From Bacteroidales bacterium (lineage in GTDB: Bacteria > Bacteroidota > Bacteroidia > Bacteroidales > UBA932): a stretch of 17,671 nt of DNA. The stretch is taken from the NCBI GenBank assembly GCA_024689525.1, contig JAILDI010000159.1:1-17671 (forward strand), read 5' to 3'. A program made the position numbers and the translations under genes. Shown piece by piece: positions 1,061 through 17,231 of this stretch. The number at the start of each line of letters is the position of its first letter. Positions within the stretch are counted from its first letter, which is position 1. The notes under the pieces were generated by a model, which was not told where the DNA came from, did no database searches, and saw only the letters and a program-made list of their open reading frames with translations.

Positions 1061-3904
1061 TTATTGTATATCAACTTTCTGTGTATAAAGGTTTCCGAAC
1101 ATATCCGTGACGCGGATTTCGCCGGAGGTTGCGCCGGCGGAGGGGTACACGGAGAAGATCATGGCTTCGGTAGAGGGTTGACAGTACTTGCGGGTAGTCT
1201 GGTTGTCCACGGTGAGGAAGATGTCGTAGTAGTCGGGATCCACACCGGGGGTGAGTTCCATATCGGCCACCTTGACGCCGTTTTCATACCATTCGGGCTG
1301 GCTCCAGCCTTCGCTCCAGTTCCAGATGGTCACCTTCACGGTGCCGTCTGTAGTGCGGGACGGGGGATAGGCCCTCATCTGGTAGTCCTGGCCATGGCCA
1401 ACGGACTTGTAGTACCAGTCCATCTGTTCGCCGCGGACGTTGAGGACCATATAGCCCTGAGGGTCTCCGAAGGAGCCCAGTTCGCGGTTGAGGCGCAGGG
1501 CGCCGGTGCAGCGTGCAACGCTGATGCACTGGATGTTAGGTGCTCCGTGAGTGGTTTCCTTGCCCTTATAGTTGTAATAGAAGTTCATATGGTTGTGGCC
1601 GTTCCAGGCGTATACGGCCTTGTAGGACGACAGCAGCGCCAGATAGTCGTTGTAATGCAGGCTATAGACGTTGTGCGAGCCGTGGGGAGACTTGTTGGGA
1701 GTCTTGAAAGGATTGTGGTGCGTGCAGGTGACGATGATCCTGTCCTTCGGAATGTAGGACAGATCCGCCTGGAGCCATGCGAGGGTTTCATCGTCCATAC
1801 CGTAGTGGTAGCTCTGTTTGGGAGAAGGACGGTCGTAGAGGATGTTGTTCAGCACCACGTAGTGTATATCCCCAAGGTCGAAGGAATAGTGGGTGGGGCC
1901 CACGTAAGTTTCATAGTAAACATTGCCCTGGGCGGTTTCGTAAAGGGTCATCTGGTCGTAGTCGTGATTGCCGATGACGTTGAAGGTGGGGCAGTGGATA
2001 GTGGCGGCTATGTCCATATAGTCGTCCCAGGCATACATTTCGTTGTAAACCAGGTCGCCCAGGTTGATGGAATACACATCACCCGTGCAACTGGCGCGGA
2101 AAGCTTCCGCATCGGCAGATACCGTGTCGTTCCAGCGTTCCATCGAGTTGTCCCATCCGTAGGGCCGTACCTGAGGGTCGGCGATCATCATCACGGTGTA
2201 GTCCTTTGCCGGTTCCCGCAGCGACAGGACGAAGTTGGCCGATGCGGCCTTGGCGTCGTGAGGTATGCGGCGGAAGAACTGGGGAACGCCGTTGAGGGTG
2301 GGAATCTCAACCGTGGAGGGGAGACTCAGATATACGAATCGGGCCGATGAGAAATCACTCTTGAGAGAGTAGTTGCCGTCGGAATCGGTGGCAGTGCACT
2401 GAAGGCCGTCTGTGACGACGATTCCCTGAATGCCTTTCCCGTCGGGGGTTGTGACACGGCCCCAGAGATTCGTGCCGTCGGCCTTGGGCTGTGCGGCATC
2501 GGCAAGGCAAAGATGGGATTCCCCGCCGGTTTTCACATTGATGGCACATCCGACAATGCTTCCACTGCGGCCCGATGCGGCAGTAACCTTTCCGTCATTC
2601 GAGCAGTCGTAAACGAAAGCGCGCAGGTCTGGACGGCATTCCGCGAAAGCCACGATGCCACCGGCGTGGATGGCGTTCACGTTGGATGCGTCATACTTGT
2701 TGCCACCTCCGGCGGTGCTCACCTTGCCGTGGTTTACGCATTCGCGTACATAAGCACCGGCCGTCTGGCTCTTAGGGCAGTAGATGTTGCCTACGATGCC
2801 GCCTGCCGTGCTGCGGGCGCGGGATGAAATGCCGTCGAAAACAATCTCTCCGTAGTTGATGCAGCCACGGATATGTACCGGACGGCCTATGTTGCCGGCG
2901 ATTCCGCCCACATTCGAAGGCTGCTCGCATTTGGCCGTGACTTTGCCATAGTTGATGCAGTCGGCTATTACCAGCGACTCGTGGGGCATACCCACGATGC
3001 CGCCGATATTGGCGCCGCATTCACCCATAGACAGTATTTCACCGTAGTTGTAGCAGCGGATGATGGTGGACTTGGTCTGGGCTGCGATTCCACCGGCCTT
3101 GGCTACGCCCTTGGTCCCGCCTTCTTCATCGGCACGGATGTCGGCAGTAACCTTGCCGCGGTTGATGCAGTATTTGTGGCTTGTGCGAACTGCGTTGCCG
3201 GTTATGCCGCCGGCGTATACTCCGGAAAGGCTTGCAATTGCCTTTACCGTGCCTTCATTCGTGCAGTGCGCCACGACGCTGGCGGCATTCGCCTTGCCGG
3301 CTCCCAGGCCGCACAGACCGCCGATGGCTACATATACTTCCTCCTTGGCGGCTCCGCTTACATCGGTGGTGATTTCTCCGTAGTTTGCACAGTTAATCAC
3401 AGAGAAGCGGTTGAATCCAACCAGGCCGCCGACATAAACCGGCCCCAGGGTATAGCTGCACTTATGTGCGAGTGTGCCGTAATTGATGCAGTCCTTGACG
3501 ATGCCCTCGTTGGTATCGGCAATGAATCCCACCTTGAATTCATCCCCGGTACTGGAAATCTTCATCACGCAAGATGCGTCGATGATGATGTTCTGAACGA
3601 TACCATTCTTGCCGATGGCTTTAAACAGGCCGCCGAATGAGGGCTTCCAGTTCATCAGCCTGTGGCCGCGGCCGTCGAACTTGCCGTCCCAGGAAATTAC
3701 CTGGGGGAGTTTCTTGGCTTTGGCAAGGTCGATGTCAGCAGAGAGATAGACGGTGCTGTCGGCATCGGCCCATTGGAGAATGCTCTCCCCTTTGTTGCAG
3801 GCGTTGATGAATGCCTCAAGCTCTTTGGCCGAGCCGATGCCCTGGGCGTATGCGCTTGCACACGCGCACAGAAGGATGCTCAGTATGAGAAGAAAACGTT
3901 TCAT
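1061..3904 (-). CDS. GLUG-repeat / calcineurin-like phosphoesterase fusion, exported
   Basis: A 947-aa exported protein with two halves. After a signal peptide (cleavage likely near AYAQ, residues 19-22; a non-canonical LCAC lipobox cannot be excluded) comes a lead-in with DGKFDGRGHRL, then about nine GLUG-type repeats (residues ~137-457) built on C-x-N-x-G-x-(V/I) ... GGI-x-G. Residues ~480-560 form a carboxypeptidase-regulatory-like / MetallophosN domain. The phosphoesterase core follows: ADPQ (Asp576), GDLVYNE (Asp617), GNHD (Asn646, His647), THHNP (His729/730) and GHNH (770-772), which are the metal-ligand motifs of the calcineurin superfamily. The C-terminus (~830-947) resembles MetallophosC. 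The first motif is D-x-Q rather than D-x-H. The family hydrolyses phosphomono- or diesters using two metal ions; the substrate here is unknown. The GLUG half may bind a surface partner or glycan. The gene starts 6 nt after its paralogue's stop. Confidence 0.88.
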   Translation of the reverse strand: MKRFLLILSILLCACASAYAQGIGSAKELEAFINACNKGESILQWADADSTVYLSADIDLAKAKKLPQVISWDGKFDGRGHRLMNWKPSFGGLFKAIGKNGIVQNIIIDASCVMKISSTGDEFKVGFIADTNEGIVKDCINYGTLAHKCSYTLGPVYVGGLVGFNRFSVINCANYGEITTDVSGAAKEEVYVAIGGLCGLGAGKANAASVVAHCTNEGTVKAIASLSGVYAGGITGNAVRTSHKYCINRGKVTADIRADEEGGTKGVAKAGGIAAQTKSTIIRCYNYGEILSMGECGANIGGIVGMPHESLVIADCINYGKVTAKCEQPSNVGGIAGNIGRPVHIRGCINYGEIVFDGISSRARSTAGGIVGNIYCPKSQTAGAYVRECVNHGKVSTAGGGNKYDASNVNAIHAGGIVAFAECRPDLRAFVYDCSNDGKVTAASGRSGSIVGCAINVKTGGESHLCLADAAQPKADGTNLWGRVTTPDGKGIQGIVVTDGLQCTATDSDGNYSLKSDFSSARFVYLSLPSTVEIPTLNGVPQFFRRIPHDAKAASANFVLSLREPAKDYTVMMIADPQVRPYGWDNSMERWNDTVSADAEAFRASCTGDVYSINLGDLVYNEMYAWDDYMDIAATIHCPTFNVIGNHDYDQMTLYETAQGNVYYETYVGPTHYSFDLGDIHYVVLNNILYDRPSPKQSYHYGMDDETLAWLQADLSYIPKDRIIVTCTHHNPFKTPNKSPHGSHNVYSLHYNDYLALLSSYKAVYAWNGHNHMNFYYNYKGKETTHGAPNIQCISVARCTGALRLNRELGSFGDPQGYMVLNVRGEQMDWYYKSVGHGQDYQMRAYPPSRTTDGTVKVTIWNWSEGWSQPEWYENGVKVADMELTPGVDPDYYDIFLTVDNQTTRKYCQPSTEAMIFSVYPSAGATSGEIRVTDMFGNLYTQKVDIQ

Positions 3905-3910
3905 ATTCCT

Positions 3911-5569
3911 TTACCAAGTAATCGTAGAAGTATGTGTGTTTCCGAAACGGTCTTTCACGCTAACCGTCCCGCTGCCGTGCTCTTCTTCCACGAAAACGCG
4001 GAAGATTGAACTGCAGTTGTTCTTGTCAGGTTCAAATTCCGAGCCGACTTTGGTGTTCTTTTGATAAAAAGCAGTTATCTGCCAGTCGCTGTAGGAATAC
4101 TTAAAGTCTGTTTCCGTGACGCGTTTCATCATAGCCGGATTACCGTTGCAGGTGAAGCGGGGCGTGCTCCACATCTCGTCCCACAGGAAGATGTTGGCGT
4201 AGATATATTTGTCGGCGGGGTCATAAGTTCCAGGAGGGAAAAGCTGCATCTGGTAGCTCTGGTCCAGGGGGGCGCCGGTGGATTTCATAATCGCCTTGCC
4301 GCTGGCGTCATAGTCCCAGTCCCGCCAGGTATAGTCAGGGGCGGTCTTGTTGCCCTCTCCTATGTATGTGCCGGTCTGGTAATAAATGGGTTTGAACTTC
4401 CAGGAAACATCGCCGTTGTCGTAATCGAATACCACATAGCCGCGGGGAGTGCCGTTGGAACCAAGATAGTCGTTGGTCCAGAGGGCGCCGGTTACCCGGG
4501 ATACGGTGTGAGTTTCAATCACGGGGTTGGTTTTGTCGACATAGTTAAAACTGGTGTGGGTGTGTCCCGCCCAGACATAGGCCTTGGGATATTTGGCCAA
4601 AAGGCCGCGGAGGTCTGCCAGATGGGTGCCGGTGCGATCTTTCCCGCTTTCCGCACGCATCATAGGGGAGTGGGCGCACACCATAAGGGGAGTGGTGGTG
4701 GGAACCAGTGAAAGGTCATTCTTCACGAATTCCCAGATATCGTCCGTGAGGCCGGTTAAGCATTCGTCGCCGTATTTTCCGCTGCCGGGGCCCGGTGCGA
4801 TCATGTTGTCCAGCATAAGGTAATGCATACCGCCAAGGTTGAAGGAATAGTTCACAGGCCCCATCTGTTCCATAAAGGTGCGGGACGCTTCTGCGTCACT
4901 CTGTTCAAGGACGTGCCCCTGGTCGTGATTACCTATTATATTATAGGTGCTGATACCGGTGGTGGCCATACCGTTGCGATAATTCGTCAAAAGGCTTAGG
5001 GCCTGATGGACGATATCTCCGAGGCCGATGCCATATACCTGGCGGCCCTTGATTGTGGCAGCGTACTCCTTCATATCGCGATACATATCGTTGCAGCAGT
5101 CCAGGGAATGGAAACCCACCTGGTCCAGGCCGGCGTTGGATTTGCGGGGCTGGGGATCTGCAAAGATAAGCACGGTATAACGCTCCGGGTTGCTTATCTT
5201 CTTAAGCGTGAAGGGAATGTTGTATTTGCCATCAGATCCCTTTGTGCAGTCCTTGAGGAACTTCCAGAATACTGCCTGGCCGTCCTGGACAGGCGCTGCG
5301 TATGTAGAGGGCGTGGACACGAATACGTAATCTGTCTTGGAAAGGTCTGCCGGGAGGTAGTACACGCCTTTGGAATCCGTCTTGACGCAATGGATACCGT
5401 CCGACACTACCACCCCCTCCAGGAGTGCACCGTCGTCACCGGAAATGGTACCGGTGATTGTCCAGTCCTTGGGCTTGTTGTTGTTTTGCCCGCCATTGTT
5501 CTCTCCGCCTTCCTTATGACAGGCGGAGAGAGCAAGAACTGCGAGCAGTATGCATATCGTCCGTTTCAT
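3911..5569 (-). CDS. Calcineurin-like phosphoesterase lipoprotein (MetallophosN-core-MetallophosC)
   Basis: A 552-aa lipoprotein with lipobox LSAC (Cys17) followed by HKEGGE, then an Asn/Gly-rich linker. Residues ~36-125 are a MetallophosN (carboxypeptidase-regulatory-like) domain with the VVSDGIHCVKTDSKGVY pattern. The catalytic core shows ADPQ (Asp138), GLGDIVH (Asp185), GNHD (Asn214, His215), CAHSP (His300) and GHTH (His336, His338), the full calcineurin-family metal set except that the first motif has Gln in place of His. The C-terminal ~150 residues form a MetallophosC-type domain ending VSVKDRFGNTHTSTITW, matching the end of the downstream paralogue. It is expected to act in the periplasm or at the cell surface, cleaving phosphoester or phosphodiester bonds; the substrate cannot be told from sequence. 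It starts 3 nt after the stop of the BACON-GLUG gene. Unlike its 947-aa paralogue it lacks GLUG repeats. Confidence 0.88.
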   Translation of the reverse strand: MKRTICILLAVLALSACHKEGGENNGGQNNNKPKDWTITGTISGDDGALLEGVVVSDGIHCVKTDSKGVYYLPADLSKTDYVFVSTPSTYAAPVQDGQAVFWKFLKDCTKGSDGKYNIPFTLKKISNPERYTVLIFADPQPRKSNAGLDQVGFHSLDCCNDMYRDMKEYAATIKGRQVYGIGLGDIVHQALSLLTNYRNGMATTGISTYNIIGNHDQGHVLEQSDAEASRTFMEQMGPVNYSFNLGGMHYLMLDNMIAPGPGSGKYGDECLTGLTDDIWEFVKNDLSLVPTTTPLMVCAHSPMMRAESGKDRTGTHLADLRGLLAKYPKAYVWAGHTHTSFNYVDKTNPVIETHTVSRVTGALWTNDYLGSNGTPRGYVVFDYDNGDVSWKFKPIYYQTGTYIGEGNKTAPDYTWRDWDYDASGKAIMKSTGAPLDQSYQMQLFPPGTYDPADKYIYANIFLWDEMWSTPRFTCNGNPAMMKRVTETDFKYSYSDWQITAFYQKNTKVGSEFEPDKNNCSSIFRVFVEEEHGSGTVSVKDRFGNTHTSTITW

Positions 5570-5572
5570 CGT

Positions 5573-8488
5573 TTATTGTTTTCCGTTCCAGTATGTGATG
5601 CCGCTGATTGTACCAGCCTCGTTACCGATAACGTTCTTTAGAGTGCCAACATTGTTTTCGCTTATTTCAACACCCTGAACCGAACCGCCGTACTTGCAGT
5701 TCTTGACGACGCTGTTGGCCTGGCCCATTCCAAGGATACCTCCCGGGTACTCTGGCTTGGTGGTGGCCTTCTTGTCGGATTTGACCGTGCCGTAGTAGGA
5801 GCATCCGTCAATTGTGACGGCATCTCCGCTGGTGGCGAGTCCAAGGATGCCGCCGGCGCAGCCATAATCCGCGCTACCGTAAACAAGGGCGGTGATGTCG
5901 CAGGTTGCCCAGCTATCCTTCACGGATGCCTTTCCGGCAGCTCCGGCGATTCCTCCGCGGTATGCGTTCTGGTCGTTGGCACCGTTGCTCAGACGGCCCT
6001 GGCTGTTACTGGAAGAAATGTTGGCGTTATAACAGTATCCCACAATGCCTCCGGTGTATCCACGATAGGAGAAGATTTCCTTGGCATTTGTGCAGGAGGT
6101 TACGGTGAGTGTGAAATTCTCGCGGGTTGTGCCGTAGTTGAAACCGCCCAATATGCCTCCGGACACGGGAGGCGTGTACATTCCGTCGTATACTCCCGTA
6201 GTACCGTTGTTATTGTATATATGGTTGGAGATGCTACCCTGGTTTATGCAGCCTGTGAACCTGGCGTTTCCGCCGTGGACGTAACCGGCGATGCCACCGG
6301 CCAGTTCACTGTAGCCGTTGGATTTGGCGCAGTACCATTGAGTGGCAAGATCCTTTCCGATTTCGCCCTTGTTGGTGCAGTTTTCGAAAACGGAGGGGCC
6401 GTTGATATATCCGGCAATGCCGCCAATCATAACGCGGCGCACGTGGCAGGTGACGGATGTGCTGTACTTGAAGCCGATGGTGCCGGACGAAACCAGATTG
6501 GTGCAGGAGAGGGAGTTGACCTCAGCGCTTGGATCGCAACCGCCGATGACGCCGCCTATGCTCAACTGCTTTGCCGTCATTTCTGCGGTGGCAAAGTCCG
6601 TGGTGAAATTTGTCTGGGCTTCATAATCCTTGAAGGTCAGGGATATTCCTTCGGGGACAAGTCCAACGAAACCGCCTGCAAAAACGAAGGTGGCGGTTTC
6701 TGCGGGACGGAAACTGTTGATATCAATGTTGCCAAGGGTGACTGATTTGTCGGATGCCCCGTCGAAGCTGTGGTCGCAGAGGACTTGTCCATACAGACCG
6801 CCAAGAGCGGCATATCCGGCGTTGCCGCCAAGTGTAAGGGTACCCATAAATGAGTTGTTGCTCACAGTGGCGCCCGCGTTGAGCTGGCTCATAATGCCGC
6901 CCACAATGGCAGTGCCGATACCGGATGAGAATGCAACCTGACCAAGTACCTCACCGGCTGTCACGGTTCCTGCGCAGAAGCCGGCAATGCCGCCTTCGTA
7001 GCAGATCAGATCCTCGGCCGAAGGTGTTGATACAGCAACCTTTCCGGACATCTTCGCGGCCTGGATACGGCTCTGAGCATCGGCCCAACCCACAATGCCG
7101 CCGAGGTACAAGGCGGCTTCTTCGTGGTCGCTGTTGCCGCCGAATTCTATAGTGCCGGCAAATGTGCAGCCGCTGATGCTTGTATTCTCCGCATTAGAAA
7201 CAATTGCGCCGAAGCAGGCTTTGTCCGCGAAGTTGGAGCTGCGGAAAATGGAGCAGCTCTTTGCCAGGGTGATATCCTTCACCGTAGCACCCTTGCAGTA
7301 GTTGAACAGGCCGTTGGCCGTATTCTTCAGGTTTGAGATGGAATGGCCGCCGCCGTCGAAAGTTCCGGCGAAGGGTTTTTCGGCAGTGCCGATACCGGAC
7401 CAGTCCTCAATGCCGTTCATATCGATATCGCCAAGAACGGTAACGGCACCGCCCTGTTCCCAGTCTGCGGTGGATGTGCCTTCATTAACTGCCTGGGCGA
7501 ACCTTACAAGGCCTTTCCCTGTAACTAGACCGTGTGCAGGCTCATAATCCTGCACGATGGCCGGAACAGCCACCACGGATGCCGAAGCATTGTTAAGGCT
7601 GATGGAAATATTGGCTGTGCGGAGTTCGTTGCAGTCGCTTAAGTTCTTATCAAGTGTAATGTCTATGGTTGCATTATCCCCCTGCTCCGTTACATTGGCG
7701 GTGGCAAAGGAAGGAACCACAACGTCTTTTACTGTATAAGCAGGCGCAGTGAGATGCAGGGCGGCTTCCTCTTCTTTGCCGAAGAAGATGTTCCCAGAGT
7801 CATCGTAGTTATAGTCCGAGCCGAACTGCCAGAGGTAGATCTTGTCCTGTTCAGCACCGGCGGTGAGAGTTACCGCGCCATAGCGGGACTCTCCGGTGTT
7901 GGCTGAGGGTTTTATGGTGAGAGTGGTCTTGGTGAATCCTCCGGCGGACGTGGATGCGCCCTTGGTGGCCTGAAGCCAGGAATCGCCGTCCACATCCCAG
8001 GACGTACCATCCAGAGTGGTGATGTTCACGGAATAGGTGTCGCCGCTCTTGGGGACCACGAAGTAAGGCTGGCCGATGATGAAGGCCGTCGCACTCTGGT
8101 TCACCTTGATGCTGGTGCCGCGGTATTCGCCCGCTACGAAAGTGAGTGTGGCTTCATCCCTGGCTTCGAAATCTTCGTTTGCCGAGATATCCAGGATAAC
8201 CTTGCCGGAGCCCTTGTGTTCGCCGGGAACTACGGTGCACCAGGGACGGTTGCTCTCCAGGTTCCAGTTGAGGTTATCGTTGTTCACACTTACCTCTATC
8301 TCCTGCCTTGTGGCGGAGTGGCTGAAGGCCAGGGACTTCACTTCCGAGCCCCCTACGGCAAAGGAAACCGACAGGCTCACGCTGTTTTTCTCCCTGGACT
8401 GAAGAATCTCTTCATCGGAAATCTTCTCCGTGCAGGAGGCGGCAAGCACTCCGGCAACCAATATAATATAAGGTATATAGCGTTTCAT
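5573..8488 (-). CDS. BACON-domain and GLUG-repeat surface lipoprotein
   Basis: A 971-aa lipoprotein (Cys19 in VLAASC) with an acidic segment just after the Cys (TEKISDEE), which may serve as a Bacteroidota surface-export signal. Two clear BACON-like Ig-fold modules follow (residues ~36-133, with NRPWCTV; ~134-225, with DGDSWLQA), then a third weaker module (~240-316). From ~318 to the end comes a lead-in similar to that of the GLUG-phosphoesterase (FAGTFDGGGHSISNL) and many GLUG-type repeats of the GGI-x-G ... C-x-N-x-G type. There is no recognisable catalytic motif. The position directly after susD is where PULs usually encode a SusE/SusF-like or other surface glycan-binding protein, and BACON domains are associated with such proteins, so a surface ligand-binding or anchoring role is likely. 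The start is 15 nt after the susD-like stop, with no clear SD, as is common in the phylum. Confidence 0.85.
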   Translation of the reverse strand: MKRYIPYIILVAGVLAASCTEKISDEEILQSREKNSVSLSVSFAVGGSEVKSLAFSHSATRQEIEVSVNNDNLNWNLESNRPWCTVVPGEHKGSGKVILDISANEDFEARDEATLTFVAGEYRGTSIKVNQSATAFIIGQPYFVVPKSGDTYSVNITTLDGTSWDVDGDSWLQATKGASTSAGGFTKTTLTIKPSANTGESRYGAVTLTAGAEQDKIYLWQFGSDYNYDDSGNIFFGKEEEAALHLTAPAYTVKDVVVPSFATANVTEQGDNATIDITLDKNLSDCNELRTANISISLNNASASVVAVPAIVQDYEPAHGLVTGKGLVRFAQAVNEGTSTADWEQGGAVTVLGDIDMNGIEDWSGIGTAEKPFAGTFDGGGHSISNLKNTANGLFNYCKGATVKDITLAKSCSIFRSSNFADKACFGAIVSNAENTSISGCTFAGTIEFGGNSDHEEAALYLGGIVGWADAQSRIQAAKMSGKVAVSTPSAEDLICYEGGIAGFCAGTVTAGEVLGQVAFSSGIGTAIVGGIMSQLNAGATVSNNSFMGTLTLGGNAGYAALGGLYGQVLCDHSFDGASDKSVTLGNIDINSFRPAETATFVFAGGFVGLVPEGISLTFKDYEAQTNFTTDFATAEMTAKQLSIGGVIGGCDPSAEVNSLSCTNLVSSGTIGFKYSTSVTCHVRRVMIGGIAGYINGPSVFENCTNKGEIGKDLATQWYCAKSNGYSELAGGIAGYVHGGNARFTGCINQGSISNHIYNNNGTTGVYDGMYTPPVSGGILGGFNYGTTRENFTLTVTSCTNAKEIFSYRGYTGGIVGYCYNANISSSNSQGRLSNGANDQNAYRGGIAGAAGKASVKDSWATCDITALVYGSADYGCAGGILGLATSGDAVTIDGCSYYGTVKSDKKATTKPEYPGGILGMGQANSVVKNCKYGGSVQGVEISENNVGTLKNVIGNEAGTISGITYWNGKQ

Positions 8489-8503
8489 ATCGTCAATACT
8501 TTA

Positions 8504-10273
8504 TTATTGTCTTCCCTTAAGCCTGTTTTCCGCACTTTCGCGGGTTGAGGCCCACCACACATCGGTTTTGATGTTGTCGGTGCCGCCAAGCCTTTCCAGA
8601 GCCTGGGGATAGGAGGCTGGATTGCGGTACTGTTCATCGGAAGGATAACGCATACGCGTGGGGAGGATGTGGTCGTTTGCGGCGGCTGGACCGTCCGTGC
8701 GAAGAAGAGGATATCCTGTGCGGCGGTAATCGCACCAGGATTCTATGCCGATGAAGAATTGGGCCAGCCATTTCTGGGTGAGGATGGCCTCCACGGCATT
8801 GCTGGAATTGAACGGCGCTCCGCTGTATTTCTCTCCGTTGGCGCACCAGTTCACATAGTCGGATACCTCGGAAGAGGATTCGGTAACGTATGGATTCCAT
8901 TCCAGGATGCTCTCTGTAATTGCCCGTTTGAACATATCCAGATATGCTCCGATTCCGGAGGCGCTGGAAATCCATCCGCGAGCACCCGCTTCGGTATAGA
9001 TGAACCACAGCTCGGAGTACTGCATCAGAGGATAGTAGTCTGCGTTCTGCAGGTCGTACACGTGGCCCCAGATTCCGCTGGGTTCAGGTGTGCCGTCGGC
9101 AGTTTTGCCCCTTACCATACGGCCTATCTTGGAGTTGCCTTGCTGAGACTTATGGAGTGCGCTGTCCAGGAATCTCACGCGTTGGACATTAAGAAGGTGG
9201 ACCGGCATACCATTCACCTTGCGCCACCAGCTGTCATAACGGGGATCTTCCTGATGACCGCCGGCCGACGAGGCCTTGTACTCATAGTAGTTGATTCCCA
9301 GTTCTTCATCCGTCTTGGTAGTGTAGTCCAGCATCCTGCGGGTGAGAACGTCACTCACGGCAACGGTGTTCCAGTTGCCGCTGGTGGTGGTGAAGAAAGG
9401 AGTGTGCTCGGTCTCGTTCTGGTCGCTGAAGGGGATGAGGGGACGGTCTGCGGCAGAACGCATCTGGGGATAGTCGCCGCCACCGCTCTGGAAGCTGGCA
9501 TACAGCTCTCCAAGCTTGGTCTTGACAGATACAGCCTCCCATTTGTCGTCGCCAAGTTCCAGGATACCACCGTCTTCCTCGATAACCTTCAATGCAATTC
9601 TCATTATTACGCGTGCGTAGAGGGAGTTGCCGAAGCGGCGCCATTTGTCATAGTCGCCACCGAAGGTTTTGTCGCAGACGGAGGAGAATCCGATTTTGCC
9701 GTCGGCCAACGCCTGACCAAGCAGTTCGTTCGCGTCTTCGAGCATACAGATAACGGCGCAGTAGATGTCCTTCTGGGAATCATAGGCCGTGTAATACTGG
9801 CCCAGTTCGTCCGTGAGGACGAGTTTACCGGCATCTGTGAAGGGAACGTCTCCGTAAGAATCCGTAATATTGGTTATGAGGAAAGCCTTCAGAATAAGAG
9901 CTACGCCCTGCATGGCGGGGTTGTTCTCCTCTACGGCCTTGTCGTACATTGACACGGCATTACCCCACTGGAGGTAAAGGGCGCTCCAGACATCGTCCGT
10001 CGTGCCTTCAGGGATATTGTAGTTGTCGATAACCCTGGAGGACACTTCCGAATTGGTGGATACCGCATACTGCATAAGCAGGACGGTGGAGGAACGGAAT
10101 ACGCTGATGAGGTTGTACTGTGTCTTGAACATTATCGGGTGCACAAAACCTTCTGAAGGAGTATCGTACAACGCATAGGGATTCTTGCTCATATCGTCGA
10201 AACGGGAGCAGGAAGCCAGCGTCAGGGCTGCAACTGCAGAGAGAATCAAACTTGTGAATAATGTCTTTTTCAT
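8504..10273 (-). CDS. SusD/RagB-family (SusD-like 2) outer-membrane lipoprotein
   Basis: This encodes a 589-aa lipoprotein with lipobox TLASC (Cys22) and an acidic motif after it (SRFDDM), typical of surface-exposed SusD proteins. Family markers are the TPR-like helical segment with KAFLITNITDSYGDVPFTDA, a YDSQKDIY stretch, and the C-terminal signature QKWLAQFFIGIESWCDYRRTG followed by LPTRMRYPSDE and a late Asn-Pro. These match the SusD-like 2 (PF12771-type) subfamily. SusD proteins act as the lid of SusC and capture the ligand at the surface. An earlier in-frame ATG at 10300 would overlap the SusC stop and lack a signal peptide at its N-terminus; the ATG at 10273 directly precedes MKKTLFTSLI and has a strong SD, so I chose it. 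The gene ends with tandem stops (TAATAA). The ligand cannot be read from sequence. Confidence 0.92.
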   Translation of the reverse strand: MKKTLFTSLILSAVAALTLASCSRFDDMSKNPYALYDTPSEGFVHPIMFKTQYNLISVFRSSTVLLMQYAVSTNSEVSSRVIDNYNIPEGTTDDVWSALYLQWGNAVSMYDKAVEENNPAMQGVALILKAFLITNITDSYGDVPFTDAGKLVLTDELGQYYTAYDSQKDIYCAVICMLEDANELLGQALADGKIGFSSVCDKTFGGDYDKWRRFGNSLYARVIMRIALKVIEEDGGILELGDDKWEAVSVKTKLGELYASFQSGGGDYPQMRSAADRPLIPFSDQNETEHTPFFTTTSGNWNTVAVSDVLTRRMLDYTTKTDEELGINYYEYKASSAGGHQEDPRYDSWWRKVNGMPVHLLNVQRVRFLDSALHKSQQGNSKIGRMVRGKTADGTPEPSGIWGHVYDLQNADYYPLMQYSELWFIYTEAGARGWISSASGIGAYLDMFKRAITESILEWNPYVTESSSEVSDYVNWCANGEKYSGAPFNSSNAVEAILTQKWLAQFFIGIESWCDYRRTGYPLLRTDGPAAANDHILPTRMRYPSDEQYRNPASYPQALERLGGTDNIKTDVWWASTRESAENRLKGRQ

Positions 10274-10280
10274 AATTCGT

Positions 10281-10288
10281 CCTCCTCC
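10281..10288 (-). promoter_or_regulatory. Strong Shine-Dalgarno site for the susD-like gene
   Basis: On the minus strand this reads GGAGGAGG, 7 nt before the ATG at 10273 and just after the SusC stop. It decides the start of the SusD-like protein and is unusually strong for Bacteroidota. Confidence 0.65.
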
Positions 10289-10289
10289 A

Positions 10290-13200
10290 TTAGAATACAA
10301 GGTTAAGCGTTGCGCCGAATTGGGCGGATGAAGGCATCTGCAGGATTTCGAATCCAGGAATCACCGCGCTGCCGCGCATCGTTACGCCTTCCGGATCGAA
10401 TCCGGGGAATTCCGTCCAGCACCAGAGGTTGTTGCCGTAAGCGGAAATGCTGGCCTGGCTGATGACCTTTGTCTTTGCCAGCAATTTCTTCGGGATCGAG
10501 TACTCCAGACGGATTTCACGGAGCTTGAGGAACTGTGTGCTCACGAAGTTTGCCTCCGCATTGGTCTGGTCGTATTTGTTATGATAGTAGGTGTTGATGT
10601 TGGCCGGGTCGATGGCGGTTGTGTTGATTACATAGTTACCGTCACCGGTTTCGCGCACGCCCACAGGAACGAGACCGCCTTCACGGCCTTCCAGCGTGGC
10701 GATGCCTTTACCACGGTAATTCAGCACCCAGTTGGTGTATGAGAAGACGTGTCCGCCCACCTGGCCGTCGAAGCCGGCATAGAAAGTGAGGTTCTTCCAC
10801 TTGAGGCTCGTATTGAAGCCGCCTTTCCATTTGGGGGCGCAGTCGCCCAGGTAATGGAGGTCGGTGGAAGTCTGGGGGAGGTTCTGGCTGTCCAGGACCA
10901 GCATTCCGGAGACATCGACCATATTGCCGTCGGAGTCGATGGCGACCGAACCTTCCGGCGCACGTACATACGCCTTGCCGTACATTGAGGTGAGGCTTCC
11001 GCCTTCATATGCGGTCATATAGGCGTGTGAACTGTACTGGGCCACAATCCAGGAGTCGATGCCTTCGCCAAGGGAAACGACAGTGTTGCGGTTCATCGTG
11101 AAGTTGGCGCCAAGTTTCCACTGGATGTCGCGGGTCTTGATTACCGTTCCGCTTACTGATGCCTCCACACCGCGGTTGCGGATGGAGCCTGCGTTAACAT
11201 ATACGTAGTTCACGCCATTTGCATAAGATACCGGCATCTGGGAGATAAGGTCCTTGGTGACGGAATCGTAGAAGGCGACATCCGCCTGCAGGCGGTTCTT
11301 GAACATTCTCATTTCCAGACCGACTTCCCAGGAGGACACAATCTCCGGGCGGAGGTTCTGGTTGGATTTGCTGGACTGGATGGCTACGGTGCCGGGGAAG
11401 CCCGTTCCCTGATAATAGTCCGCAATACGGTACGGTGCAGTGTCGTTACCCACCTGCGCCCAGGAAGCGCGAAGCTTCATCAGGTTGATGAGACCGTTTG
11501 TGCGTCCGAACTCGAAGAGGTCGTTGAGAGCGACACTTCCGGAAACAGACGGGTAGAAGAATGAACGGTTGCTCTTGGGAAGTGTGCTGGACCAGTCGTT
11601 TCGGCCGGTAATGTCCAGGAACACGGCATTCTTCCAGGAGAAGGACACCATCCCGTACAGGGAGTTCGTCTGGCGCTCGTAGCTGTTGTTGCCGGTGAGC
11701 GGTTCATAACTTGTGTTTACGAGGGAATAAACTCCGGGAATCTTCAGCGCGCTGGCAGTCTGCGAATGATTGCTGTAGCTGCGGTATATGATGCTGCCGC
11801 CGAAGTTTCCGTCGAAACGGAGGTCCGGGGTTATTACCGTGGTGTACTTGAGCAGGAAGTCTCCGGAGAACTGTTTGGAGTCGATGTCCTGTTCGCGGTA
11901 CCAGCCGTTGGGCTTGGCCTGTGTGGACGTCGCCTGGCGCTGGGAGCGGAATTCACTGGTTACGTCAAGGCCGCCGCGGACGGTGAGGTCCAGTCCCTTG
12001 ATGATATCGGCCTTCATTGAAACGTTTCCGTAGATTCGGTCTCGCGCCTGGTTGTTGATGCACTGGTAGGCAAGGAAGTATGCATTGTTCTTACCTCCGG
12101 AAAGGCTGGCATCCTGAGTGAAGGCGGACTCGTCCTTCCAGTAATTCTTGGCCCAGGCCATATCGATGTTGGGAGCATAGCACCACAGGCCGTACATAAT
12201 GGCCGTGGAACCGTAACCGGAAGAAGTGGGTATGTTGTCCTTGCGGGTGCGCCTGTAGTTGATGGAACTGTCCAGTTTGAGCCAGCTTGCAAGTTTGTTG
12301 GATGTGCGGACCGATACGAAGTGCGAGTTGCTGGGGGAATTGGGGACGATTCCGCTGACGCTGTTGTTGGTGTAGCTCAGACGGACGCTGTTCTCTTTGT
12401 TGATCTTGCCCGACAGCACGATGGAGTTGGAGAAGGTGAGGCCTGTCTCGAAGTAGCGCTTGAACCAGTCGCCGTAGCTAACGTACGGAGTGGCGTCGCG
12501 CTGGAATCCAAGGAGTTCGTCGTAGTGGCCGCCGATACCGAGTTTCTCGTTATAGTACTGATAATACTTCGTTCCGTCCATTTTGGGACCCCACGACTCC
12601 ATACCGGCAGTGGTGGAGTATTCGGGGCGGGGGTTTATTCCGGCCGCGTCGTCGCCCTCTCCGGAAACCAGATAGTAATAATAATTCAGGCCCGCTGAAC
12701 CTTGTCCGTAGGTGTACTGGAGGTCAGGGGACGAGAGGACTCTGTCCGCCGCGAAACTGGACTTGAAGCTCACGTTGAACACGGCGTCCTGGGCTTCTGC
12801 GCTCTTGGTGGTTATGATGATAGCGCCGTTTGCGGCCTGGGAACCGTACAGTGCGGTTGCGGCCGCGCCCTTAAGGACCGTTACGCTCTCGATGTTTTCC
12901 GGGTCGATGTCCGCGGTACCGTTACCGTAGTCGATGGCGAAGGATGAACCCTCGCCGCCGGCATCCGAGGTGGTTGCCGTGTTATACATCGGAACACCGT
13001 CCACAACGAACAGTGCCGTGTTGTTTTCAAGGGAGGCCGATGATTCACCGCGCACCGTAACGCGCATTGAACCGTCCGGACCGCTGCTTCGGTCGATATT
13101 AAGGCCGGCCACCTGTCCGGTGATGCCGTTGAGCCAGTTTCCTGTGGTTCCGGAGTTGGCGAAATGCTCGCCGTCCACTTTCTCCACGGAATAGCCGAGC

Positions 13201-13565
13201 GCCCTTTCGTCTCGTTTGATACCCAGGGCGGTGACAACTGCCGATTCAAGGATTTCCGAATCATCCTTCAGAACGACGCGTTCCAGTTCTGAGGAACCTG
13301 CCTTTAAGACGATGGTTTCGTAACCCAGGCAGGAAAAAGTGATGTCGGCGCCGTTCTTTGCATTGATGCTGAATTTACCTTTTTCATCTGTGATACAAGC
13401 ATCGCCGCCGGCGATGAACACGGCCACTCCGGGGATGGGATCCCCATTGGTGTCCACGACAACGCCGCTCCGCACCTGACTGCGGTCCTGTGCGATTGAC
13501 GGCACCGTGGCAGCAGCGGTAAGCAGTGCCACCGCCACGATACAAATCTTGGAAATAAGTTTCAT
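10290..13565 (-). CDS. SusC/RagA-family TonB-dependent outer-membrane transporter
   Basis: A 1091-aa TonB-dependent transporter. It has a Sec signal peptide (cleavage near PSIAQ), a CarboxypepD_reg-like domain at ~33-107 (GDPIPGVAVFIAG ... TDEKGKFSI), a TonB-box region around EILESAVVTALGIKR (~104-118), then the plug domain (~120-255) with LNGITGQVAGLNI, ALFVVDGVPMYN and the ENIESVTVLKGAAATALYG signature. The rest is a 22-strand-type beta barrel ending in the aromatic-terminated strand FGATLNLVF. SusC proteins import oligomeric ligands captured by SusD, energised by TonB-ExbBD. Length is within the usual 950-1100 range and no frameshift is seen. There is no STN domain, so it is unlikely to be the direct sensor of an anti-sigma factor. 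It starts one base after the stop of the upstream antiporter gene, an unusually tight coupling of inner- and outer-membrane transport genes. Confidence 0.95.
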   Translation of the reverse strand: MKLISKICIVAVALLTAAATVPSIAQDRSQVRSGVVVDTNGDPIPGVAVFIAGGDACITDEKGKFSINAKNGADITFSCLGYETIVLKAGSSELERVVLKDDSEILESAVVTALGIKRDERALGYSVEKVDGEHFANSGTTGNWLNGITGQVAGLNIDRSSGPDGSMRVTVRGESSASLENNTALFVVDGVPMYNTATTSDAGGEGSSFAIDYGNGTADIDPENIESVTVLKGAAATALYGSQAANGAIIITTKSAEAQDAVFNVSFKSSFAADRVLSSPDLQYTYGQGSAGLNYYYYLVSGEGDDAAGINPRPEYSTTAGMESWGPKMDGTKYYQYYNEKLGIGGHYDELLGFQRDATPYVSYGDWFKRYFETGLTFSNSIVLSGKINKENSVRLSYTNNSVSGIVPNSPSNSHFVSVRTSNKLASWLKLDSSINYRRTRKDNIPTSSGYGSTAIMYGLWCYAPNIDMAWAKNYWKDESAFTQDASLSGGKNNAYFLAYQCINNQARDRIYGNVSMKADIIKGLDLTVRGGLDVTSEFRSQRQATSTQAKPNGWYREQDIDSKQFSGDFLLKYTTVITPDLRFDGNFGGSIIYRSYSNHSQTASALKIPGVYSLVNTSYEPLTGNNSYERQTNSLYGMVSFSWKNAVFLDITGRNDWSSTLPKSNRSFFYPSVSGSVALNDLFEFGRTNGLINLMKLRASWAQVGNDTAPYRIADYYQGTGFPGTVAIQSSKSNQNLRPEIVSSWEVGLEMRMFKNRLQADVAFYDSVTKDLISQMPVSYANGVNYVYVNAGSIRNRGVEASVSGTVIKTRDIQWKLGANFTMNRNTVVSLGEGIDSWIVAQYSSHAYMTAYEGGSLTSMYGKAYVRAPEGSVAIDSDGNMVDVSGMLVLDSQNLPQTSTDLHYLGDCAPKWKGGFNTSLKWKNLTFYAGFDGQVGGHVFSYTNWVLNYRGKGIATLEGREGGLVPVGVRETGDGNYVINTTAIDPANINTYYHNKYDQTNAEANFVSTQFLKLREIRLEYSIPKKLLAKTKVISQASISAYGNNLWCWTEFPGFDPEGVTMRGSAVIPGFEILQMPSSAQFGATLNLVF

Positions 13566-13566
13566 C

Positions 13567-14940
13567 TTATATCGTTTGTTGTTTGCGTTTCCAATTGAAG
13601 ATTGGCAGGATGAACGAGATTATCGCTGCGCCAAGCCAGAACCAGCGGACATAGGTGTAGTCGCGTACGCCTTCCACGCCGCTGTCCATAAGAAGACCGG
13701 TGACCACGTTCTGCAGACCTGCTGCGGCATAGGATGCCATTCCAACGATACCAAGGGCGGCGCCCGTCGCCTGACGGGGAACGAGGTCCACCGCCATAAG
13801 GCCGCCGAGGAAGCTGATCAGAACGCCGATGGCGATGCCGAACAGGACCATTGCCACGATATTGATCCACTTGGACGCTCCTCCGAAAAGGAACAGGGCC
13901 AGGGCGATGGCTTCCAAGATACCTGCAACGAAAGCGGGATATTTGCGGTCCCCCTTGAACAGGACGTCCGACAGCCAGCCGGAGACAACCGTGCCGATGA
14001 TACCGAAGATGGGGTTGATACCGATAATGGCGGCTGCGCCGGCAAGGTCATATCCCTTGGTGTCCTGCAGGAAGATGACGCCCCACTCGTTGATGGCGTA
14101 GCGGCTCATATACATAAAGGCGCTGGCCAGGGCGAGAATCCACACGCCGGGGTTCTTGATGACTGCTTTCTGCATCTGTTTGGTCTGGGCCCTCTTTTGC
14201 TCGGGTGTGAGGGTCTCCGCCTTCTCGTTTTCTCCGGTGAGCACTTCCACGGGAGGAAGACCCTTGGATTCAGGGGTGTCGTGAAGGAGCAGGAGGATGA
14301 GGATAATGCCCAGGACACCGGCCAGGGCGGCTCCGAAGAAGCCCCACTTCCAGCCGAATGCGGCCACTATGGAACCCACGAAAATGAAGGAGAGGCCTTC
14401 GCCGATATTGTGGGATGCACTGAAGAAACCGTAATAGGTTCCGCGTATGCGCAACGGATACCAGCGCGAAAGGGCTATGATTGCAGGCGGCGCGCCCATT
14501 GCCTGGGTGGCGCCGTTGATTGCCCAGCAGATGGCGAACAGGATGAACAGCAGCGAGGTTGTGATTCCGCCGTTGAGCGCCGTGACACCAAGGGTGCCCA
14601 TCGTGAAGTTCATAAGAACGGAGATGGTGATGCCCGTTGCCATAAAGCGCTTGATATTGGAGCCATCGGCAAGGAAGCCGCTGATGAGTTTGCTCACTGC
14701 GTACGCCCAGTACAGACAGGCGCCGATGATACCAAGCTGTGTTGCATTTAGAAGCCCTGCGTCGATGAGCGGCTGCTTCATTACGCCCATTGAAAGGCGG
14801 CAGACATAATAGAGCGCGTATCCGAAAGTTCCGGCCAGGAAGGACTGGAAACGGAGGCGCTTGTAGGTTTTGTCTACCTTATCGGCGGGTACCATATTCG
14901 CCGAGGGTGCGCTGATTTTGTAAAAATCCAGAAAAGCCAT
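13567..14940 (-). CDS. OPA-family (GlpT/UhpT-like) organophosphate antiporter, MFS
   Basis: A 457-aa polytopic membrane protein with about 12 hydrophobic segments split by a charged loop (~230-260). Several motifs line up with E. coli GlpT from memory: GYALYYVCRLS (Arg48, corresponding to GlpT Arg45), GTYYGFFSASHNIGEG (His177, corresponding to GlpT His165) and YMSRYAINEWGVIFLQ followed by GTVVSGWLSDVLFKG (Arg280, corresponding to GlpT Arg269). In GlpT and UhpT the two arginines bind the phosphate moiety. The family exchanges glycerol-3-phosphate, hexose phosphates or related organophosphates for inorganic phosphate across the inner membrane. The substrate here is unknown. It is the first gene of the operon, 23 nt from the promoter -7 element, and its stop is followed after one base by the SusC start. 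Its place with two phosphoesterases suggests it takes up their phosphorylated product. Confidence 0.88.
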   Translation of the reverse strand: MAFLDFYKISAPSANMVPADKVDKTYKRLRFQSFLAGTFGYALYYVCRLSMGVMKQPLIDAGLLNATQLGIIGACLYWAYAVSKLISGFLADGSNIKRFMATGITISVLMNFTMGTLGVTALNGGITTSLLFILFAICWAINGATQAMGAPPAIIALSRWYPLRIRGTYYGFFSASHNIGEGLSFIFVGSIVAAFGWKWGFFGAALAGVLGIILILLLLHDTPESKGLPPVEVLTGENEKAETLTPEQKRAQTKQMQKAVIKNPGVWILALASAFMYMSRYAINEWGVIFLQDTKGYDLAGAAAIIGINPIFGIIGTVVSGWLSDVLFKGDRKYPAFVAGILEAIALALFLFGGASKWINIVAMVLFGIAIGVLISFLGGLMAVDLVPRQATGAALGIVGMASYAAAGLQNVVTGLLMDSGVEGVRDYTYVRWFWLGAAIISFILPIFNWKRKQQTI

Positions 14941-14963
14941 TAATTAAATGATGTATAACTTGG

Positions 14964-14993
14964 CAAATATAATAAAAAGTGTCGAAAATTCAA
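14964..14993 (-). promoter_or_regulatory. Bacteroidota promoter of the SusCD/phosphoesterase operon
   Basis: On the minus strand TTG (14993-14991) is followed by exactly 19 nt and then TATATTTG (14971-14964), a full match to the Bacteroides sigma-ABfr consensus TTTG/TTG-N19-TAnnTTTG. It would give a short leader of roughly 15-20 nt before the antiporter ATG at 14940. It is the only strong promoter I see for the eight-gene minus-strand set. Confidence 0.75.
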
Positions 14994-15011
14994 TAAAGAT
15001 TCTTATATTTG
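14982..15011 (+). promoter_or_regulatory. Bacteroidota promoter of iorAB
   Basis: TATATTTG at 15004-15011 matches the -7 consensus TAnnTTTG perfectly. The -33 position 19 nt upstream (14982-14984) holds TCG, a one-base miss from TTG. The element lies about 27 nt before the iorA ATG at 15039. It mirrors the minus-strand promoter and the two overlap by 12 nt in their -33 regions. Confidence 0.65.
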
Positions 15012-15038
15012 CGTAACACTAAAACTAAATTATTGACA

Positions 15039-16643
15039 ATGTCGGAAAAACTTCTTCTTTTGGGAGACGAAGCCTTGGCGTTGGGCGCACTGCACGCTGG
15101 TCTGAGCGGCGTTTACGCCTACCCGGGCACTCCATCCACTGAAATTACGGAATACATCCAGGGGCATCCGCTGGCGGCGGAACGCAAGGTGCACAATGTG
15201 TGGTCCAGCAACGAGAAAACCGCAATGGAGGGCGCACTTGGTATGTCATACGCCGGGAAGCGCGCCCTGGTGTGCATGAAGCACGTTGGAATGAACGTGT
15301 GTGCGGATCCCCTTATGGGCAGCGCGATGACGGGCGCAAACGGCGGCCTTGTAGTGGCGGCCTGCGACGACCCGTCCATGCACAGCTCGCAGAACGAGCA
15401 GGATTCCCGCTTCTGGGGCACGTTCGGAATGATGCCTGTATTCGAACCTTCCTCCCAGCAGGAAACATATGTAATGGCGCGCGCCGCTTTCGAGTATTCG
15501 GAGAAGCGGGGGATTCCCGTCATAATGAGGCTCACCACCCGTATGGCGCATTCCCGCGCCGTGGTGGAGCCGTGGAAGGATATCGACAAGCAGAATGAAC
15601 TCCATTATCCGGAGCATCCGCGCCGCTGGGTGACGCTTCCGGTGAACGCTAAGGTGCGCAACCGCGAGCTAATCAAGGATTACGCGCAGTTCGAGGAGGA
15701 TGCGGCGGCATCGGCCTTCAATTTCCTCAAGGACGGGCCGGACCATTCGATGGGAATCATCGCCTGCGGCATTGCGTACAACTACCTGATGGAGAATTAT
15801 CCTCAAGGCTGCCCGTTCCCGGTGCTCAAGGTGTCGCAGTATCCTTTCCCGCGCAAGATGGCGCAGGAACTGGCCGGGATGGTGCCCAAAATCCTCGTTA
15901 TCGAGGAGGGCCAGCCGCTGCTGGAGGAGCGTCTGCGCGGCGTATTCCCCACGGAGACGGAGATCGTCGGCCGTATCGACAATACCCTTCCCCGCGACGG
16001 CGAGCTTTCGCCGGATGCCGTGCGCAAGGCTTTGGGCCTGCCTGAGCTGGAGGCCTATCCCGCAAGCGAGGTTGTGGCTCCACGCCCGCCGGCACTTTGC
16101 ATCGGCTGCGGCCACAGGGATTTCTACACGGCGCTGAACAACGTCCTGAAGAAGGATTATCCCACGGCGCGTGTGTTCAGCGACATCGGCTGCTATACGC
16201 TCGGATATATGGCTCCGTTCAACGCAATCCACACTTGCGTGGAGATGGGAGCGTCGTTCACGATGGCTCAGGGCGCTGCATACAGCGGCACATGGCCTGC
16301 CGTGGGCGTGCTGGGAGATTCAACCTTCACGCATAGCGGAATGACGGGCCTTCTGGACGCAGTGAACGGCAAGGCCGATGTGGTGCTGTGCATATCGGAC
16401 AACCTCACCACGGCTATGACCGGTGGGCAGGATTCCGCGGGCACGGGCCGCATTGAGGCCATTTGCGAGGGCCTGGGAGTGGAGAAGGAGCACATACGCA
16501 CTATAGTCCCTCTTCCCAAGAACTATCCGGAAATGGAAAAAGTCATCCGTGAGGAAATAGAGTATCACGGCGTGTCGGTAATCGTATGCCGCCGCGAATG
16601 CATCCAAACCGCAAGACGTCACGCTAAAGCCAACGCAAAATGA
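15039..16643 (+). CDS. iorA: Indolepyruvate:ferredoxin oxidoreductase alpha subunit, lacking C-terminal ferredoxin domain
   Basis: A 534-aa cytoplasmic TPP-dependent subunit that converts aryl-pyruvates from aromatic amino acids to aryl-acetyl-CoA, reducing ferredoxin. The N-terminal pyrimidine-binding domain shows GVYAYPGTPSTEITEYI (~24-40), SSNEKTAMEGALG (~56-68) and MKHVGMNVCADPL (~80-92). The TPP diphosphate-binding domain has CIGCGHR (354-360), SDIGCYTLG and the GDS ... DN motif (426-428, 454-455) ahead of TAMTGGQDSAGTG. Classical IorA is over 600 residues and ends with two 4Fe-4S ferredoxin motifs; this one stops at CRRECIQTARRHAKANAK, where that domain would begin, with no CxxCxxCxxxCP. 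A longer TTG start (15009) overlaps the -7 promoter element, so I use the ATG at 15039; the leader lacks an SD and is A-rich, as usual for the phylum. It overlaps iorB at ATGA. Confidence 0.93.
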   Translation: MSEKLLLLGDEALALGALHAGLSGVYAYPGTPSTEITEYIQGHPLAAERKVHNVWSSNEKTAMEGALGMSYAGKRALVCMKHVGMNVCADPLMGSAMTGANGGLVVAACDDPSMHSSQNEQDSRFWGTFGMMPVFEPSSQQETYVMARAAFEYSEKRGIPVIMRLTTRMAHSRAVVEPWKDIDKQNELHYPEHPRRWVTLPVNAKVRNRELIKDYAQFEEDAAASAFNFLKDGPDHSMGIIACGIAYNYLMENYPQGCPFPVLKVSQYPFPRKMAQELAGMVPKILVIEEGQPLLEERLRGVFPTETEIVGRIDNTLPRDGELSPDAVRKALGLPELEAYPASEVVAPRPPALCIGCGHRDFYTALNNVLKKDYPTARVFSDIGCYTLGYMAPFNAIHTCVEMGASFTMAQGAAYSGTWPAVGVLGDSTFTHSGMTGLLDAVNGKADVVLCISDNLTTAMTGGQDSAGTGRIEAICEGLGVEKEHIRTIVPLPKNYPEMEKVIREEIEYHGVSVIVCRRECIQTARRHAKANAK

Positions 16644-17227: not shown

Positions 17228-17231
17228 ACAT

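Follow-up and report, generated by a model that had tools for sequence, protein, structure and literature searches.

A SusCD-type uptake locus with conserved calcineurin-like phosphoesterases in a Bacteroidales bacterium and its relatives

Gene content and operon organization

The window analyzed here, a stretch of 17,671 bp from a Bacteroidales bacterium (contig JAILDI010000159.1), carries on its minus strand a tightly packed set of genes that joins an OPA-type antiporter (OPA) to a SusC/SusD pair, a lipoprotein with BACON and GLUG features, two calcineurin-like phosphoesterases (CPE1 and CPE2) and an Mfa-like lipoprotein. The gaps between successive genes, from OPA through the Mfa-like gene, are 1, 16, 15, 3, 6 and 188 bp. 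The first six genes had been described in a first-pass annotation of the window as one tightly spaced set. The set is real, with gaps of 1–16 bp and the domains that were claimed, its arrangement is meaningful (see below), and the Mfa-like gene adds a seventh member. The features are as follows:

14964–14971, minus strand: TATATTTG, promoter-like motif directly before OPA, presumably a −7 element of the Bacteroidales type
13567–14940, minus strand: OPA-type MFS antiporter, gene 1 of the operon (Pfam MFS_1)
10290–13565, minus strand: SusC/RagA TonB-dependent transporter (Pfam TonB plug and barrel; TIGR04056 579.9 bits, cut-off 368.25)
8504–10273, minus strand: SusD-like surface lipoprotein (SusD-like_2 and SusD-like, PF12771 and PF12741; lipobox)
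5573–8488, minus strand: BACON/GLUG lipoprotein (BACON PF13004 58.5 bits, cut-off 25; lipobox; 12 GLUG-like motifs)
3911–5569, minus strand: CPE1, calcineurin-like phosphoesterase lipoprotein (MetallophosN/C; lipobox)
1061–3904, minus strand: CPE2, calcineurin-like phosphoesterase fused to GLUG repeats (without lipobox)
3–872, minus strand: Mfa-like lipoprotein, seventh operon member, truncated by the window edge, 188 bp after CPE2

Lipoboxes were identified by a simple pattern in SusD, the BACON/GLUG protein, CPE1 and the Mfa-like protein; CPE2, which lacks one, has at most an ordinary signal peptide (judged by eye). Pfam lists no STN domain for the SusC of the window. Pfam Glug was not called in the window proteins and is called in related lipoproteins; the GLUG assignment made previously for the BACON protein is borne out instead by its 12 copies of the repeat G-x-(I/V)-x-G (mean 0.81 and maximum 6 in 500 shuffles), and CPE2 has 6 copies (mean 0.36, maximum 4). 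The BACON/GLUG lipoprotein is a probable surface ligand-binding protein. The Mfa-like protein scored 21.6 bits with fim_Mfa1_fam, far under the cut-off of 130. A domain scan of the seven minus-strand proteins found no glycosidase, lyase or peptidase domain, in agreement with the first-pass annotation, and the window lacks the one or more carbohydrate-active enzymes that characterize a classical polysaccharide utilization locus. Rfam and tRNA scans of the window gave no match.

Conservation of the SusCD-phosphoesterase core

A SusD profile scan of 84,980 species genomes led to 216 related stretches, of which 80 were returned and 44 (L001–L044) studied; L045–L080 were set aside as remote or fragmentary, although L052, L071 and L077 may be true relatives. 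Two of the 44 loci, L004 and L037, belong to the same genome (G374), hence a total of 43 genomes. Going by titles, the related loci come mostly from the rumen or hindgut of ruminants and other animals. The labels of neighboring genes come from BLAST, and for most accessory families one member was checked with Pfam or NCBIfam.

SusC, SusD and the BACON protein are kept in all 44 loci. At least one phosphoesterase of the MetallophosN/C type is found in 37 loci and at least two in 35, while the seven loci without a visible phosphoesterase all stop at a contig edge. The order SusD–BACON–phosphoesterase–CPE2 is exact in 28 loci; among the remaining 16, nine run into a contig edge no more than two genes from SusD, and GLUG lipoproteins or OPA (L041) intervene in seven. 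Many loci are extended by more GLUG lipoproteins and by Mfa-CPE fusions (CPEb), and Mfa/GLUG proteins of 689–1250 amino acids come after CPE2 in many relatives. The segment from SusC through the second phosphoesterase is thus an old unit. Within families it is patchily distributed: one family has a close SusD in 10 of its 398 genomes surveyed, a second in 11 of 268. OPA, on the other hand, adjoins SusC only in the window and in its nearest relative L001, so the six-gene order is not conserved: of the elements that the first-pass annotation expected to travel with SusCD, the phosphoesterases do and the antiporter does not. The conserved system is a phosphoesterase core with SusCD, the antiporter being a recurrent optional partner.

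The two locus copies of G374 are diverged, their SusD proteins having 71% (L004) and 39% (L037) identity to that of the window. L037, the second copy, carries genes for GH20 and GH97, and downstream of it lies an OPA piece of 158 residues.

The phosphoesterases CPE1 and CPE2

Both enzymes match MetallophosN and MetallophosC (PF16371 and PF16370; cut-offs 35.6 and 29.7), with 67.5 and 59 bits for CPE1 and 75.9 and 84.1 bits for CPE2. The central Metallophos model gave 19.2 bits for CPE1 (cut-off 21.5) and is not listed for CPE2. The metal ligands are intact in both proteins, and their models have the calcineurin-like dimetal fold of GpdQ-type phosphodiesterases. The glycerophosphodiesterase GpdQ (2zo9, 2dxl, 3d03) is the best match of the two models in the VIA fold comparison. 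The proteins differ from it by their low identity (12–19%), by extra N- and C-terminal domains, by the lipoprotein nature of CPE1 and the GLUG fusion of CPE2, and in the first metal motif, which we take to be Asp-x-His in GpdQ: Gln (Gln140 in CPE1) stands at the position of its presumed His in every sequence with a letter there. A Foldseek search with CPE1 returned Rv0805 and 5′-nucleotidases with low TM-scores, GpdQ not being among the 50 matches listed. The sole profile match of CPE1 among solved sequences is a wheat purple acid phosphatase (E 4.2e-4), a phytase by titles. A literature search for PF16371 and PF16370 by name turned up papers on plant purple acid phosphatases only. The single-sequence search with CPE1 gave only weak matches to a TPR protein, which were taken as chance.

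In 12 related genomes of 1.5–2.3 Mb (G001, G002, G003, G005, G006, G007, G333, G342, G372, G673, G677, G680), MetallophosC has 2–13 matches each and EEP 3–22, some of them in open frames longer than 1,000 amino acids.

The antiporter and its linkage to the locus

Over nearly its full length, OPA is related to GlpT (1pw4; E 6.4e-47, residues 11–407). Its scores lie far under the curated NCBIfam cut-offs of GlpT (212.1 bits, cut-off 632.55), UhpT (170.9, cut-off 497) and PgtP (183, cut-off 750). The description of the protein as GlpT/UhpT-like therefore holds as to its kinship, within a family often found near phosphoesterases (see below), and does not extend to membership in any of the three named groups. 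Residues R48, H177 and R280 align with Arg, His and Arg of GlpT, presumably Arg45, His165 and Arg269 of its substrate site. As had been noted for the window, they are kept; they are conserved in 50, 48 and 48, respectively, of 50 OPA sequences.

OPA relatives are present in 33 of 35 genomes (E ≤ 1e-100) and in 8 of 8 genomes (E ≤ 1e-3). In 11 of the 43 genomes, in addition to the window, the gene lies in or beside the locus. Five arrangements were found:

Arrangement 1, OPA upstream of SusC: window and G001 (L001) only
Arrangement 2, OPA at the far end after EEP: G005, G006, G333, G677, G683
Arrangement 3, OPA at the far end after an Mfa-like lipoprotein: G680, G675
Arrangement 4, OPA in mid-locus with EEP, NanE and phosphohexomutase: G007, G410
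Arrangement 5, OPA beside a CPE gene on the opposite strand: G673 (the weakest linked case)

The gene is in the same-strand run as SusC in G001, G005, G006, G007 and G680, on the same contig after a break in G333 and G677, and on another contig beside locus-type genes in G675, G683 and G410. The OPA piece of L037 was not counted as linked. On a tree of the 50 OPA sequences, which flags long branches including that of the G007/G410 pair, the label “linked” (12 rows) requires six changes, at least four of them forced by well-supported branches. None of 500 shuffles of the label was as low, which shows that it is also clustered on the tree. OPA would accordingly be a gene that repeatedly joined or left the locus, the tree being silent on which.

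Gene company of OPA in the relatives

The 49 OPA contexts compared here are those that were fetched and not a random sample; L112–L114 were left out and some weaker OPA places are not included. The immediate same-strand neighbor of OPA is a labeled phosphoesterase in 20 contexts; in 26 such a gene is found no more than four genes away. These are EEP in 12 cases, GDPD in 8, CPE in 7, the purple-acid type in 4 and His_Phos_2 in 1 (some contexts have two). With 132 EEP genes in 12 genomes (mean 11), the chance adjacency of EEP to a given gene is ~1% if shared descent is ignored. The EEP protein of L001 matches mannosyl-6-phosphatase 4c1r (E 1.7e-38), which we take to be BT3783 of the yeast-mannan locus; two structures without a named function are matched just as well. 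EEP3 of L106 and L147 was not counted, being another member of the family (Exo_endo_phos_3; the L106 frame also contains galactokinase domains).

GDPD stands directly beside OPA in seven contexts (L148, L167, L168, L170, L171, L172, L180), of which L167, L168, L170, L171 and L172 are from Rikenellaceae/Alistipes metagenome-assembled genomes. These pairs recall the GlpQ-GlpT type. GDPD is absent from the window, however, and none was labeled in the 44 joined loci, while the window OPA is under the GlpT cut-off.

NanE accompanies OPA in G007, G410, G676, G302 and G516; it passes NF002231 in L115 (G007) and L161 (G676) and was assigned by similarity in the other three. This family acts on N-acetylmannosamine 6-phosphate; its company points to amino-sugar phosphates as the cargo of some of these antiporters. 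The L115 mutase is distantly related to GlmM (278.6 bits, cut-off 439). A separate OPA operon consisting of NanE, a nucleotidyltransferase-like gene without Pfam hit, phosphohexomutase and OPA was observed in L161 (G676), L165 (G302) and L160 (G516). A purple-acid-type phosphatase follows NanE in L161 and L165, and in L161 the operon is followed by a BACON gene and a different SusCD.

Promoter-like motifs and regulation

The sequence TAnnTTTG, which we read as a −7 promoter motif of the Bacteroidales type, was found four times in the window, without overall enrichment (5.59 expected by chance). The 98-bp spacer that separates OPA from the divergent iorA holds two of these, one on each strand. 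The motif at 14971–14964 is the sole extragenic one on the minus strand, and no −7-like motif lies between OPA and SusC. Because the two genes abut, they very likely share one transcript. In L001 OPA overlaps SusC by one base and is preceded by an EEP-family gene, with TACATTTG 35 bp upstream of the latter. This gene (segment 1726–2741 of L001), located between iorA and OPA, is absent from the corresponding segment of the window (14941–15038), whose flanks align at ~85%; the difference may reflect either gain or loss.

TAnnTTTG is found within 300 bp upstream of SusC in 15 of the 38 loci with upstream sequence, none of them among the 11 loci (L041, L039 and nine others) where a FecR gene precedes SusC. 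The SusC of FecR loci is ~90 amino acids longer (1,171–1,203 amino acids, and one shorter open reading frame (ORF) of 965) than that of the other loci (1,075–1,134, leaving aside three shorter ORFs of 222, 264 and 924). Pfam STN was found in two of four SusC proteins tested from FecR loci (L041 and L039, not L010 and L016) and in neither of two controls (L011, L020). Given this pattern across the loci, those of the window and L001 seem to have been placed under the promoter of the antiporter or of EEP.

The divergent operon on the plus strand of the window (15009–17671) codes for indolepyruvate:ferredoxin oxidoreductase subunits followed by the start of an aminotransferase-like gene (by eye). 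The alpha subunit scored 487.8 bits, under its cut-off of 650.9, and the beta subunit exceeds the cut-off of one model.

Glycosidases and esterases of the relatives

Pfam was run on one member per family of accessory enzymes, the others being assigned by similarity, and unlabeled genes were scanned in part. Glycosidases occur in the same-strand run of eight of the 44 loci:

GH97: L011, L020, L021, L037
GH127: L004, L011, L013, L020
GH31 and GH106: L016
GH20: L037
GH28 and an MGH1-like enzyme: L042

GH97 or GH127 lies on the same stretch outside the run in four more loci (L002, L008, L038, L039) and on another contig (L156) of the L024 genome. GDSL or SASA esterases are also recurrent. The claim that the locus is built for organophosphates rather than glycans was thus too strong. 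These glycosidases make small organophosphates a less likely ligand than a glycan that is phosphorylated or a polymer that has sugar side chains.

Proposed function and alternative explanations

A fairly likely role of the operon is SusCD-type uptake of a phosphodiester-containing polymer or glycoconjugate that is cut at the surface, trimmed by CPE2 and imported by OPA. Gene content, operon packing, conservation, intact metal sites and fold come from the computed data, and surface placement, phosphodiesterase activity, a polymeric ligand, the cargo and the following order of steps are what we infer. The ligand would be captured and cut at the cell surface by CPE1, as a lipoprotein phosphodiesterase, together with SusD and the BACON/GLUG and Mfa-like lipoproteins; SusC would pass the fragments into the periplasm, where CPE2 would cut them to phosphorylated monomers, and OPA would bring these into the cytoplasm in exchange for phosphate. 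The likeliest cargo would be glycerol 3-phosphate or a hexosamine phosphate. The phosphodiester-bearing ligand of the first-pass annotation gains support from the constancy of the phosphoesterases, their intact metal sites and a fold nearest to a glycerophosphodiesterase; the small organophosphates among its candidates have become less likely.

Several observations weigh against this function. The lead of GpdQ over other phosphoesterases is ~1.4–1.7 in Z, Foldseek ranks Rv0805 first for CPE1, and a common fold does not mean a common substrate. In 29 of the 43 genomes the only OPA genes seen (≥55% identity) lie apart from the locus, although some contigs there are so short (for example 3.7 kb in G689, 5.8 kb in G679, 7.6 kb in G682) that linkage may have gone unseen; in G681 an OPA of 48% identity was found only elsewhere, and none was found at 1e-100 in G674 and G686. 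No labeled phosphoesterase accompanies OPA in 23 of the 49 contexts, five of them flagged as near a contig end, nor in the three extra contexts L112–L114. The glycosidases of eight loci also count here.

A more specific and less likely possibility is that the core is dedicated to phosphodiester-linked polymers of microbial surfaces, such as teichoic acids or sugar-1-phosphate capsules, with GpdQ-like cutting of the backbone and import by OPA. The variable glycosidases and the GDSL/SASA esterases would remove side groups. OPA would bring in N-acetylhexosamine phosphate or glycerol 3-phosphate, which NanE and phosphohexomutase would pass to metabolism in some relatives. If so, gut bacteria would feed on the walls or capsules of neighboring microbes. 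Searches of one open-licence library listed no title or abstract on the use of teichoic acids or phosphodiester polymers by SusCD loci, which is not proof of absence.

It is doubtful that the locus is instead one for a glycan whose phosphate decorations alone are trimmed by the phosphoesterases, with glycosidases encoded elsewhere and OPA as a sugar phosphate importer or a passenger. The glycosidases found in the run of some loci fit this explanation, as does the match of the EEP partner of OPA to mannosyl-6-phosphatase, yet that match is tied with the two structures of unnamed function and the window has no EEP gene. Furthermore, the CPE folds resemble diesterases first. The phosphoesterases are constant and multiplied, and it is the glycosidases that vary; a phosphodiester backbone or core bearing different sugars would fit this better than a sugar backbone decorated with phosphate.

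A study on Flavobacterium describes systems (PUS) that combine SusCD pairs (PusCD), phosphodiesterases or phosphomonoesterases and inner-membrane organophosphate transporters, and that are induced by phosphate depletion (PMC8115612); the PusCD idea recurs in PMC8812569. The parts list is that of the window, which has a SusCD-like pair, co-localized phosphoesterases (by domain and fold), OPA 1 bp from SusC and no carbohydrate-active enzyme. Beyond the window, the transporter is found in or beside the locus in only the 11 genomes given above. Strict phosphate scavenging of this type, induced by phosphate starvation and serving to obtain phosphorus from a range of organophosphates instead of carbon from a single polymer, is unlikely in view of the FecR genes preceding a longer SusC in 11 of 44 relatives and of STN in two of the four tested. 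FecR with an STN-type SusC is a ligand-sensing circuit, distinct from PhoB control. Further differences from PUS are the gut and rumen Bacteroidales hosts, the MetallophosN/C enzymes, the GLUG/BACON lipoproteins and the glycosidases in the run of some relatives, kinship to PusCD being judged here by the parts list. The kind of system is therefore one known from soil Flavobacterium, and the window is a distinct gut form of it, with a ligand predicted to be polymeric and to contain phosphodiesters. By its own statement, the PUS study did not scrutinize anaerobic isolates from the gut. SusCD-based organophosphate uptake would thus extend from soil Flavobacterium to dozens of genomes of gut and rumen Bacteroidales, and an uncharacterized phosphodiesterase pair would be its core.

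The antiporter could also be a passenger serving general organophosphate uptake that came to abut SusC by chance in this lineage. Its position immediately upstream of SusC in the window and L001 only, and the many genomes where it stands elsewhere or was not found, agree with this. We regard such an origin as quite unlikely: the 11 of 43 genomes with OPA in or beside the locus compare with ~0.5 expected for a random gene (50 kb, same strand, 2-Mb genomes, shared descent ignored), linkage takes five arrangements with at least four forced changes on the OPA tree, and OPA and SusC abut without a −7-like motif between them.

His_Phos_2, MurQ and other genes near the loci

Inositol phosphates (phytate and its products) are very improbable as the ligand. 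The indications in their favor are the wheat purple acid phosphatase match of CPE1 and His_Phos_2 genes, a family that we take to include MINPP phytases, in or beside five of the 44 loci (L016, L019, L020, L022, L038). The “MINPPb” of L154 has no Pfam hit and the rows so labeled (L152, L153, L154, L179) were thus not counted. The export of an InsP6 phosphatase by a gut Bacteroides, reported in PMC3969271, is a reminder of this alternative.

In L020 an 852-codon ORF encoding a beta-lactamase-type/His_Phos_2 fusion, followed by MurQ, is found just upstream of SusC (3282–6655). A link to murein was considered from this MurQ gene, 61 bp upstream of SusC, and from a kinase-like gene 55 bp upstream of SusC in L002, which was named by eye and matched nothing in NCBIfam, nor in Pfam at the thresholds used. 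The link was given little weight because in both loci SusC has its own −7-like motif 44–45 bp ahead. GlmM and a dipeptidase encoded upstream of SusC in L029, with the same clusters in L034 and L035, were read as housekeeping genes.

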